DNA of 33,809 bases, taken from positions 1-33,809 of the forward strand of contig JAITLC010000101.1 in NCBI GenBank assembly GCA_031278095.1. Direction: 5' to 3'. Below the pieces are notes generated by a model that was given only the letters and a program-made list of their open reading frames with translations, did not search any database and had not been told where the DNA came from. The stretch's first letter is position 1, and each line of letters begins with the position of its first letter. Shown one piece after another: positions 1,524-31,619 of the stretch. Made by a program: the position numbers and the translations under genes. The DNA is from Treponema sp. (GTDB taxonomy: Bacteria > Spirochaetota > Spirochaetia > Treponematales > Breznakiellaceae).

Positions 1524-1639
1524 GGGAAACGCTGATTAAATGACGCCAATCAGCGTTTTCCTGTGTATGTGCTCATTTTATTGCGCACATACCGCATTAA
1601 AGCAGCGCTGATTTATTCTCGATTGAATAAATCAGCGCT
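1524..1639. repeat. Composite hairpin repeat, family A copy 1
   Basis: Three consecutive inverted repeats fill this stretch. Hairpin 1 (1524-1537 with 1548-1561) has 14-bp arms with one mismatch. Hairpin 2 (1565-1572 with 1585-1592) has perfect 8-bp arms. Hairpin 3 (1604-1618 with 1625-1639) has perfect 15-bp arms around a 6-nt loop. The whole block recurs in reverse orientation at 14590-14743, and hairpin 1 alone recurs at 25322-25367. It lies between the DUF4340 gene and the promoter of the sugar operon, so it may also act as a terminator. It is too small to encode a transposase, so a REP/MITE-like element is the likely class. Confidence 0.85.
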
Positions 1640-1662
1640 TCCTTTTACACCCCTTAAAAAAG

Positions 1663-1709: not shown

Positions 1710-3290
1710 ATGAAGAAATTCAACGGTTTTACGGTTAAAGGGAAGCCTTTCTTTGCCCTTGGCGCCCAGGTGCATAATTCAAGTTCTTACAGCAGGGAAA
1801 TGTTTGATGAGTCCTGTAAATCGGCGCTGGCGTTAAATTGTAATACTTTGGAAGCGCCTGTTTACTGGGAGAAAATCGAACCAAAGGAAGACGCCTTCAA
1901 TTTCTCCATGATTGACTATATGCTGGAACTTTGCAGGGCCAATAACCTGCGTCTGATCGTATTATGGTTCGGCAGTTGGAAAAACGGCGATCTGAGTTAC
2001 ACGCCGGAGTGGGTTAAAAAAGATCCGCGGCGGTTTCGGCGGGTTTTACGGTCAGACGGAATTCCTGTAGCCGATCTATCCGCTCATTACGAAGAAAATA
2101 TGCGGGCCGATGCAAAAGCCTTTGGCGCGGTTATGGCGTATCTTAAGGAAGTTGACGGCAAAGAACAGACGGTTATCGCCGTACAGGTTGAAAATGAGCC
2201 GGGGTACCTCAGGACCGACAGGGACTATTCTCCACAGGCTTTGGATAATCAAAAGGCGGTTGTACCGGAACAACTCCTGAATTTTCTTGAAAGCTGTCAA
2301 TACTCTCCCGCATATATAAACTGGAAAGAAAAGGGCAAGAAGAAAAATTCCGGATGGGCCGATACCTTCGGATTTCACGGGTATGAATACTGTGAAGCCT
2401 GGCATTTGGCAAAATATATAGACTATGTTGCCGGCAGGGGAAAGGCCGCCTGTGACATTCCGATGTATATCAACGTTTGGCTTTCCGGGGGCGCTCCCTG
2501 GAGCGTTCCGGGCATTGAGTATCCCGGAGGCGGCGCTGTTCCAAGAACATTGCATGTTTGGCAGGCGGCTGTTGAAAATATCGATATTATTGCCCCCGAT
2601 ATTTATGATCAGAATTGTTACCGTTTCGAAAAAATATGCGATACCTACGCCGACGGCGGCAACGCCCTGTTCATTCCGGAGTCGCATAATAATGGGACTA
2701 TTGCCTATAACATGTTTTACGCCATAAGCCGCGGGGCGGTGGGCGTTGCATCGTTTGGCGCGGAGAGCGTTTTGGACGGCGACGGGAACCTTTTGGACGG
2801 GAGTCTCCATGTGGCGGAAAGCAATCTGGCGGTTCTGAACGCGATGCCCATGGTGCTAAAATACAAAAATACCGGAAAAATGTACGGGGTTGTCCGGCAC
2901 ACGGATGAACTTTACGCAAATTTTGAATTTGAAGATTTTCTGGGCAGCGTATCGTTTGCAGGAGGCGAATACGGTTTTACCGATTACAGCACCAAACGGG
3001 TAAAAACTACTCCTGCCGGCAGGGTTCCGAGAGGTCTGATATTTGAGGAAGACAGCCGCACCTTTTACCTCGCCGGATTATTCAACCTCAGGCTGGTCCG
3101 CAAAATGAGCCCGGAAGTTACCGTAATAGCCAACGCCGTGCCGACTCCGGATTTTATAGCCATAGAAGAAGGTCATTTTGACAGTGAGGGGATGTTTTTA
3201 GTTGACAGAATTCGGAACGGCGATGAGGTTTTTTTCGGCGGCTTTTGGGTGACTCCTCAATGTGGAATCGTCCGCATAAGGCTGGTTTAG
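1710..3290 (+). CDS. GH35/GH42-like beta-galactosidase with DUF5597-type C-terminus
   Basis: The 526-residue protein has no signal peptide, so it is probably cytoplasmic. It is a clan GH-A TIM-barrel glycosidase. The acid/base glutamate is predicted at E163 in VENEPG and the nucleophile at E324 in FIPESHN. The N-terminal GKPFFALGAQVHNSS segment matches the start of GH35-type barrels, and residues from about 390 look like the DUF5597 beta-sandwich domain attached to bacterial GH35-like enzymes. The expected reaction is release of terminal beta-D-galactose from imported oligosaccharides. It is the first gene behind a strong promoter, and its stop codon directly abuts the ATG of the next gene, so translation is probably coupled. 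Substrate specificity is inferred; a related beta-glycosidase activity is possible. Confidence 0.78.
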   Translation: MKKFNGFTVKGKPFFALGAQVHNSSSYSREMFDESCKSALALNCNTLEAPVYWEKIEPKEDAFNFSMIDYMLELCRANNLRLIVLWFGSWKNGDLSYTPEWVKKDPRRFRRVLRSDGIPVADLSAHYEENMRADAKAFGAVMAYLKEVDGKEQTVIAVQVENEPGYLRTDRDYSPQALDNQKAVVPEQLLNFLESCQYSPAYINWKEKGKKKNSGWADTFGFHGYEYCEAWHLAKYIDYVAGRGKAACDIPMYINVWLSGGAPWSVPGIEYPGGGAVPRTLHVWQAAVENIDIIAPDIYDQNCYRFEKICDTYADGGNALFIPESHNNGTIAYNMFYAISRGAVGVASFGAESVLDGDGNLLDGSLHVAESNLAVLNAMPMVLKYKNTGKMYGVVRHTDELYANFEFEDFLGSVSFAGGEYGFTDYSTKRVKTTPAGRVPRGLIFEEDSRTFYLAGLFNLRLVRKMSPEVTVIANAVPTPDFIAIEEGHFDSEGMFLVDRIRNGDEVFFGGFWVTPQCGIVRIRLV

Positions 3291-12129: not shown

Positions 12130-12157
12130 TTGTTCCAAAAACTGAAATTTTGGAACA
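12130..12157. repeat. Hairpin repeat, family B copy 1
   Basis: The arms TGTTCCAAAA (12131-12140) and TTTTGGAACA (12148-12157) pair perfectly around a 7-nt loop. Flanking sequence (CTTG before, GCCTCAC after) is shared with other copies at 22302-22348 and 25395-25424. It lies between two minus-strand genes and could end transcription of the J-domain gene. Confidence 0.8.
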
Positions 12158-12766: not shown

Positions 12767-12791
12767 GTTCCGAAACTTCGAATTTTGGAAC
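12767..12791. repeat. Hairpin repeat, family B copy 2
   Basis: GTTCCGAAA (12767-12775) pairs with TTTTGGAAC (12783-12791) with one G-T wobble. It sits in the divergent intergenic region between the J-domain gene and galM, so it probably is not a terminator here. I found no convincing -35/-10 pair for galM in the rest of that region. Confidence 0.7.
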
Positions 12792-12888
12792 AAGTTTAGT
12801 ATACAACAAAGAGAGGGTATCCGCTACCATTTTTACCATAGCTGTAGTATCATACAGGCACAATCAAAATCCATTTAGGAGTATAGGC

Positions 12889-14358: not shown

Positions 14359-14589
14359 TTCGATTCGGTTTTTAAGCGTAACATCAATCTTCCCGGTGTT
14401 CCGTTACTATTCCCGCGGTGAAATTTAAAAGGCATCTCATGTTCACGGCGGCGCCCATCTTACTTGCTCTCAGCTATTCTCGGTTTAAGACAGCCGCGAA
14501 CCGCTCGAACAGAAGAGAATTCAGGTAAAAAATAAAGGACGTCGAAGAAACGTTAGTGTCTGTTTGTGCCGTTCATGGTAAACTAAGCA
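14359..14589. other. Intergenic stretch with no recognisable feature
   Basis: About 230 bases between the operator-like palindrome and repeat A2. I see no open frame of convincing composition, no RNA family and no clear promoter. It may be the eroded upstream region of the deleted isomerase gene. Confidence 0.4.
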
Positions 14590-14743
14590 AGCACTGATTT
14601 ATTCAATCGAGAATAAATCAGTGCTGCTTTAATGCGGTATGTGCGCAATGAAATGAGCGCATATACAGGGAAACGCTGATTCGCAGGCCTGGGTTCATAC
14701 CCCGGAGCTTGCTCCTGGGTTCTTCATTTAATCAGCGTTTCCC
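14590..14743. repeat. Composite hairpin repeat, family A copy 2 (inverted)
   Basis: This is the reverse complement of the block at 1524-1639. It contains a perfect 15-bp hairpin (14590-14604 with 14611-14625), a central GTATGTGC hairpin, and perfect 14-bp arms at 14668-14681 and 14730-14743. The last loop has grown to 48 nt: it carries a small GGAGC/GCTCC hairpin (14704-14715) and a 9-bp direct repeat CCTGGGTTC (14688-14696 and 14714-14722). It lies just before the V-ATPase promoter. Confidence 0.85.
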
Positions 14744-14754
14744 TAAGAATTTCT

Positions 14755-22543: not shown

Positions 22544-22571
22544 TTGTTCAAAAACTGAAGTTTCTGAACAA
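22544..22571. repeat. Hairpin repeat, family B variant
   Basis: TTGTTCAAAAAC (22544-22555) pairs with GTTTCTGAACAA (22560-22571) with one mismatch. It is a diverged family B unit (TTGTTC..AAAAAC) immediately upstream of ispG. Confidence 0.6.
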
Positions 22572-25321: not shown

Positions 25322-25367
25322 TCCGGGGAAGCACTGATTGGCGTCAATTAATCAGCGTTTCCCCGGA
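25322..25367. terminator. Hairpin after the zinc-ribbon gene, family A copy 3 (single hairpin)
   Basis: The outer arms TCCGGGGAA and TTCCCCGGA continue into CACTGATT/AATCAGCG, giving a long stem with two mismatches and a 10-nt loop. It corresponds to hairpin 1 of the composite repeat at 1524-1639 and keeps the loop core GGCGTCA. It may have been adopted as a terminator. Confidence 0.7.
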
Positions 25368-25394: not shown

Positions 25395-25424
25395 CTGTTT
25401 CATAAACTTCAGTTTTTGGAACAG
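25395..25424. repeat. Hairpin repeat, family B copy
   Basis: CTGTTTCATAAAC (25395-25407) pairs with GTTTTTGGAACAG (25412-25424) with two mismatches. A shorter copy follows at 25450-25467 and overlaps the S20 promoter. Confidence 0.7.
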
Positions 25425-29498: not shown

Positions 29499-29505
29499 AA
29501 AAGTT

Positions 29506-29536
29506 CTGTCCGCAAAGTAACCGGTTTTATGGACAG
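29506..29536. repeat. Hairpin repeat, family C copy 1
   Basis: CTGTCCGCAAAGTAACC (29506-29522) faces TTTATGGACAG (29526-29536); CTGTCC and GGACAG pair, with weaker pairing inside. The same left arm occurs at 31588-31604. It lies between pncC and rho, 8 nt after the pncC stop. Confidence 0.65.
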
Positions 29537-31573: not shown

Positions 31574-31587
31574 CATGAATGCAAGGT

Positions 31588-31619
31588 CTGTCCGCAAAGT
31601 AACCTTACTTTGTGGACAG
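31588..31619. repeat. Hairpin repeat, family C copy 2
   Basis: CTGTCCGCAAAGTAA (31588-31602) pairs over 15 bp, with one G-T, with TTACTTTGTGGACAG (31605-31619), leaving only CC between the arms. This near-perfect palindrome lies in the convergent gap between rpmE and the GH29 gene. Confidence 0.8.

Follow-up and report, generated by a model that had tools for sequence, protein, structure and literature searches.

Two matched hairpins and the repeat that carries them

The 33,809-nt stretch of DNA analyzed here (the window, contig C94 of the 3.05-Mb draft genome G000, which consists of 157 contigs and is 92% complete) contains two 36-nt hairpins whose stems differ by a single base pair, G-C in one and A-T in the other. 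The question that they raise is whether such a matched change reflects selection for the folded form (RNA or cruciform) or correction of one arm by the other, as the original prediction had proposed. Both hairpins are as described, with 15 of 15 Watson-Crick pairs each: positions 1604-1639 read AGCGCTGATTTATTC/TCGATT/GAATAAATCAGCGCT and positions 14590-14625 read AGCACTGATTTATTC/AATCGA/GAATAAATCAGTGCT. The 6-nt loop, said to be kept, is the same when both copies are oriented alike; on the forward strand, the two loops are reverse complements of each other because the second copy lies on the minus strand. When the whole window was scanned for stems of at least 10 bp with loops of 3 to 12 nt, the matches were both hairpins, a further hairpin of the same repeat (H1) and one other palindrome. 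DNA folding of the two hairpins was also far better than that of shuffled sequences (z, -7.3 and -9.1), and on these grounds a chance origin was rejected.

The 15-bp stem is therefore real, but its hairpin makes up only one-third of a larger unit. It is the right end (H3, stem of 15 bp) of a dispersed, three-hairpin repeat of ~124 nt whose other stems measure 14 bp (H1) and 8 bp (H2) (Table 1). Both terminal inverted repeats are outer arms of hairpins, the left one belonging to H1 and the right one to H3 (in copy 1, the hairpin at 1604..1639). The left end reads GG[ACT]AACGCTGATT and the right end GGAAGCACTGATT, and the flanks are NTAR, mostly YTAR.

Table 1 Features of the repeat in the window
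Feature	Position	Strand	Description
Copy 1, MITE core between flanking 4-mers	1525..1642	+	Part of ~124-nt repeat
Copy 1, flanks	left 1521-1524, right 1643-1646	+	TTAG (left), TTTT (right); right-side duplication not visible
Copy 1, H1	1524..1561	+	14-bp stem, 10-nt loop; outer arm forms the left terminal inverted repeat
Copy 1, H2	1565..1592	+	8-bp stem; outside the terminal repeats
Copy 1, H3	1604..1639	+	15-bp stem, loop TCGATT, position 4 G-C
Copy 2	14587..14742	-	CTAA duplicated exactly (4 bp), at 14583-14586 and at 14743-14746
Copy 2, H3	14590..14625	-	15-bp stem, position 4 A-T (majority state)
Copy 2, H1	14668..14743	-	~40 nt of further dispersed repeat in place of the loop
Solo H1-like palindrome	25326..25363	.	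Consists of two back-to-back terminal repeats; H2 and H3 absent

Copy 1 lies between genes for a DUF4340 protein (13-1488) and a GH35-like beta-galactosidase (1710-3290), and relatives carry different DNA downstream of the first of them. Many places in genomes G001 to G004 match the ~50-nt module at 14677-14730 in the H1 loop of copy 2; the module is thus another dispersed repeat. Solo H1 palindromes, with two end repeats ~10 nt apart, also occur at loci L266, L276, and L279; they are possibly minimal elements.

A mobile element related to IS5

The repeat is short, noncoding, multicopy, and mobile. A palindromic H3 pattern allowing up to 3 mismatches found ~60 hairpins in the genome (none with the reversed control), and a covariance model gave 141 matches at an E value of ≤0.1, reverse-strand and partial ones included. 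The distribution of the model matches was patchy, with 33 of 98 family genomes and 24 of 56 genera represented. A scan with the exact pattern found one match among genome contigs and none among viral contigs. A match is also carried by the "Treponema sp." MAG record JAIRXN010000083.1 and by the same-genus relative G002; the host is accordingly a Treponema-like spirochaete. None of the 35 own-genome copies examined for context fell within an open reading frame of at least 150 amino acids; copies were often close to gene ends, and both orientations occurred. At locus L080, the element is absent from the orthologous site in all three relatives that have the locus (G001, G003, and G004), with flanks ~91% identical, and these empty sites also lack ~40 nt of other sequence beside the element. 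G001 lacks the repeat-bearing stretch of the second window site as well, within a larger difference; at the first window site, no clean empty site was found in relatives, in which the downstream stretch differs.

Insertion produced duplications of 4 bp. The 4-mers on the two sides matched exactly in 20 of 48 own copies (shuffled mean, 8.5) and in 35 of 55 copies from relatives (shuffled, 14.9), values reached in none of 5,000 shuffles in either case. The first flank base alone agreed in 38 of the 48 own copies (shuffled, 23.5; again 0 of 5,000), and targets not starting with Y were duplicated as well (ATAG/ATAG, GTAG/GTAG). A bias was also visible in the flanks, with C for T at the second base of the left duplication in 9 of 48 own copies and G for A at the third base of the right one in 10 of 48; both correspond to a T-to-C change in YTAGG, read on one strand or the other, which recalls very-short-patch repair.

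YTAR is the target duplication of the IS5 group. The 4-bp length seen here is that of this group, for which a published table has 4-bp target duplication entries (PMC3281130), and the terminal inverted repeats are shared with an IS5-family element. Six transposase loci were found in family genomes using a G016 protein as the query. In five of them (L182, L183, L185, L186, and L187), YTA[AG] next to GG[AC]A[AG]C[AG]CTGA adjoins the transposase gene, this end motif being missing at L184. Two IS5-type elements of G016 show both ends, one such end with a one-base change. The protein pieces matched DUF772 and DDE_Tnp_1 above the cutoff and NCBIfam IS5_4 below it, as expected for fragments.

No matching transposase was found in G000 itself at an E value of ≤1e-5, in a draft that is 92% complete and in 157 contigs, and insertion sequence copies often break assemblies; a search for PF01609 gave two weak matches, neither bounded by the ends of the repeat. 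The autonomous partner is for this reason inferred from relatives, and mobilization in trans by an IS5-type transposase appears probable. The repeat is a mobile, IS5-derived MITE.

Stem changes within the genome

A comparison of two copies is by itself insufficient to carry a claim of selection for folding. We therefore turn to the 48 own-genome H3 copies, defined as those with up to 9 substitutions from the consensus and preceded by the linker (other places were left out of the count). Of these, 16 were perfect, and 32 had at least one non-Watson-Crick pair. Of the changes in the 720 H3 cells, 62 affected one arm (28 G·U, 20 A·C, and 14 transversions) and 10 affected both arms; 8 of the latter left a Watson-Crick pair (shuffled, 3.6; p, 0.011). 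Many uncompensated arm changes, which the original prediction had named as evidence against itself, are thus what this genome contains (62 one-arm versus 8 compensated). Covariation was weak in an alignment of 36 own copies (0.090 versus 0.080) and 0.144 versus 0.091 in a set of 49 rows with more divergent copies. In H2, a two-state pair (G-C/T-A) was mismatched in 11 of 36 copies.

As for the pair that distinguishes the two window hairpins, stem position 4 was A-T in 36 of the 48 copies, G-T in 7, G-C in 4, and A-C in 1, and the reconstructed tree root was also A-T. Given this majority and this root, the copy at 1604 (G-C) is more likely the derived one, and the polarity originally proposed, from G-C to A-T, is probably the opposite. 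Outside H3, the copies closest to that copy are A-T copies. On the tree, there were several separate changes from A-T to G-C at this position, some via G-T or A-C, and the G-T intermediates in the own genome suggest ordinary stepwise change there.

Covariation across genera

The picture changes across the family, where the stems do covary, so that the proposal of selection or arm-to-arm correction holds between genomes and is contradicted by the mostly one-arm changes within one. In 75 copies from relatives (out of 90 loci; 15 that were cut off, ragged, or low scoring were dropped, which favors well-paired copies), the covariation score was 0.253, compared with 0.070 for shuffled alignments and 0.056 for the best slid control. 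Both sides had changed in 26 of 37 pairs, and 96.6% of cells were paired (85.8% when shuffled), the copies having been collected with a structure-scoring model that also favors well-paired ones. There were sixteen different perfect arms for H3 (among them CTGATTTATTC, CTGAAAAACTC, CTGATTAATCC, and CTGAATAATTC) and eleven for H1 (among them GGGAAAC, GGGCAAC, GGGTAAC, GGGCGGC, and GGGTGCC), each with its complement.

In the covariation check called for at the outset, only 6 of 37 pairs passed a phylogeny-aware null at an E value of <0.05, one in H1, three in H2, and two in H3; this test used parsimony, with substitutions replayed on a tree of 123 closely related copies built from the same columns (one partial own row was dropped beforehand). 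Scores as high as those of helix pairs also came from some non-helix column pairs within H2 or near it, which points to subfamily structure. The ratio of Watson-Crick double changes to one-arm changes was 39:47 on internal branches and 47:156 at the tips (p, 2e-4; p values for tree counts were computed from the means, after rounding, of 20 parsimony reconstructions and assume independent events). Since doubles are relatively more common on internal branches, lineages keep the stems paired and single inserted copies lose the pairing.

What may keep the stems paired

The one-arm changes on the tree were G·U in ~80 cases and A·C in 72 (p, 0.63). Paired changes comprised 33 transitions and 52 transversions (52 of 85), while one-arm changes comprised 152 transitions and 52 transversions (52 of 204; p, 1e-8), a few hot columns driving part of the transversion count. 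Given this lack of a G·U bias and the richness of paired changes in transversions, we prefer a process acting on DNA to selection on a one-strand RNA. Of the forms originally put forward, the latter finds no backing in the G·U counts, and a DNA-level process that includes arm-to-arm correction fits better, although it is unproven.

The account that we consider likely is that of an IS5-family MITE of ~124 nt with three hairpins that an IS5-type transposase would mobilize in trans, whose active source copies would hold their stems paired at the DNA level and whose inserted copies would then decay. Template switching during replication may copy one arm onto the other, and/or copies with paired (palindromic) ends may transpose or survive better; we hold such DNA-level maintenance, through arm copying together with better survival or movement of paired copies, with moderate confidence. 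Template switching favors transversions in bacteria, according to work cited in PMC8604942, and it predicts matched arm changes and loop inversion (PMC8794818, PMC8604942). It fits the transversion-rich paired changes because arm copying can place any base. A single inverted loop was present among the 88 H3 loops tabulated, at L053 (G000 contig C89, 1498-1621), where the loop is AATCGA instead of TCGATT in a copy otherwise normally oriented. Under this account, the G-C/A-T difference between the window hairpins would be one variant of stems kept paired in active copies, present in several genera. We give little credence to the further step that the DDE (IS5-type) element needs paired hairpin ends, with the transposase or a replication-linked step acting on folded single strands or cruciforms. 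If hairpin ends were required, active lineages would be selected to keep three DNA hairpins by compensation.

Selection on RNA is the main rival, although an unlikely one. It would have active copies transcribed, by read-through or as a small RNA of their own, with selection seeing a three-hairpin RNA that acts, e.g., as an mRNA stabilizer or terminator. The RNA fold is indeed very stable on both strands (z, -9.9 and -9.0), copies are intergenic and often near gene ends, and MITE transcripts form stable stem-loops, as stated in a review (PMC10969869). Against it, G·U is not preferred over A·C among one-arm changes, many of the paired changes are of the transversion type, which has no G·U intermediate, and no Rfam family matched at the gathering score in the whole window. 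Copies occur in both orientations, however, and if RNAs of both strands were selected, the pattern would likewise be symmetric. An RNA element or riboswitch was rejected on the Rfam result and the lack of a G·U preference.

Quite unlikely, too, is the absence of any pressure, with a few early perfect-palindrome subfamilies spreading by inheritance and whole-hairpin exchange. Such exchange between subfamilies would also change both arms at once and mimic doubles, variation in the own genome is mostly one-armed, and the two-state H2 pair and the high-scoring non-helix pairs are what subfamily structure gives. Yet matched arms must have arisen repeatedly to give the sixteen H3 and eleven H1 arms, position 4 shows its several separate changes from A-T to G-C, and six pairs exceed the tree null.

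Comparison with known elements

As a kind, an IS5-related MITE is ordinary and already known. ERIC, RUP, and Correia-type MITEs are intergenic, palindromic elements of ~100-150 nt that are IS630-like and duplicate TA; they are similar to the repeat, whose 4-bp duplication sets it apart from them as they are generally described. REPIN/RAYT systems are not known to produce a target duplication, whereas the repeat has one of 4 bp. It is very unlikely that the repeat depends on other machinery, whether of the IS630 type or an HUH transposase acting on hairpins (REPIN/RAYT, IS200/IS605): TA does stand at the center of the YTAR target, and REPINs are hairpin miniature elements with compensatory changes (PMC3116915), but the duplication extends to 4 bp, as the agreement of the first base and the duplicated non-Y targets indicate and as disfavors IS630-type TA duplication, and the terminal repeats match IS5-type ends.

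The closest likeness is to the IS5-family MITEs of Porphyromonas gingivalis, described as short, without a transposase, and with IS5-family terminal repeats and possible predicted stem-loops (PMC4596501). In contrast to BrickBuilt of that species, for which variable target duplications and internal repeats are reported (PMC4596501), the repeat studied here combines YTAR duplications of 4 bp with three hairpins and covaries across genera. REPINs, as described in PMC3116915, resemble it as high-copy miniature DNA with hairpins in single-stranded DNA or RNA and compensatory hairpin changes; they differ in depending on RAYT tyrosine transposases, the element here having a 4-bp target duplication and IS5-type ends. 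Quasipalindrome correction is described in rRNA and microRNA stems and in yeast genes (PMC8794818, PMC8604942), while here it is inferred only from patterns in a mobile repeat. No earlier description of the repeat family, its hairpin ends, or its covariation was found in the open-licence literature searched.

Two features are unusual: the end repeats are each contained in a separate hairpin, and many natural copies, spread over about two dozen genera, preserve a record of how the arms stay matched. The family therefore offers natural material for asking whether selection or template switching lies behind compensatory change in short stems and whether DDE elements use hairpin ends.

Neighboring repeats

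A second palindromic repeat family, of the GTTCCAAAAACTGAAATTTTGGAACA type, occurs in the window at 12131-12157, 12767-12792, 22545-22570, and 25398-25423, and members of it sit inside the MITE copies L056, L041, and L058. A 22-nt repeat with GTCTGTCCGCAAAGTAACC is located at 29501-29522 and 31583-31604, and similar stretches with GTCTGTCCATAAAGT adjoin some MITE copies.
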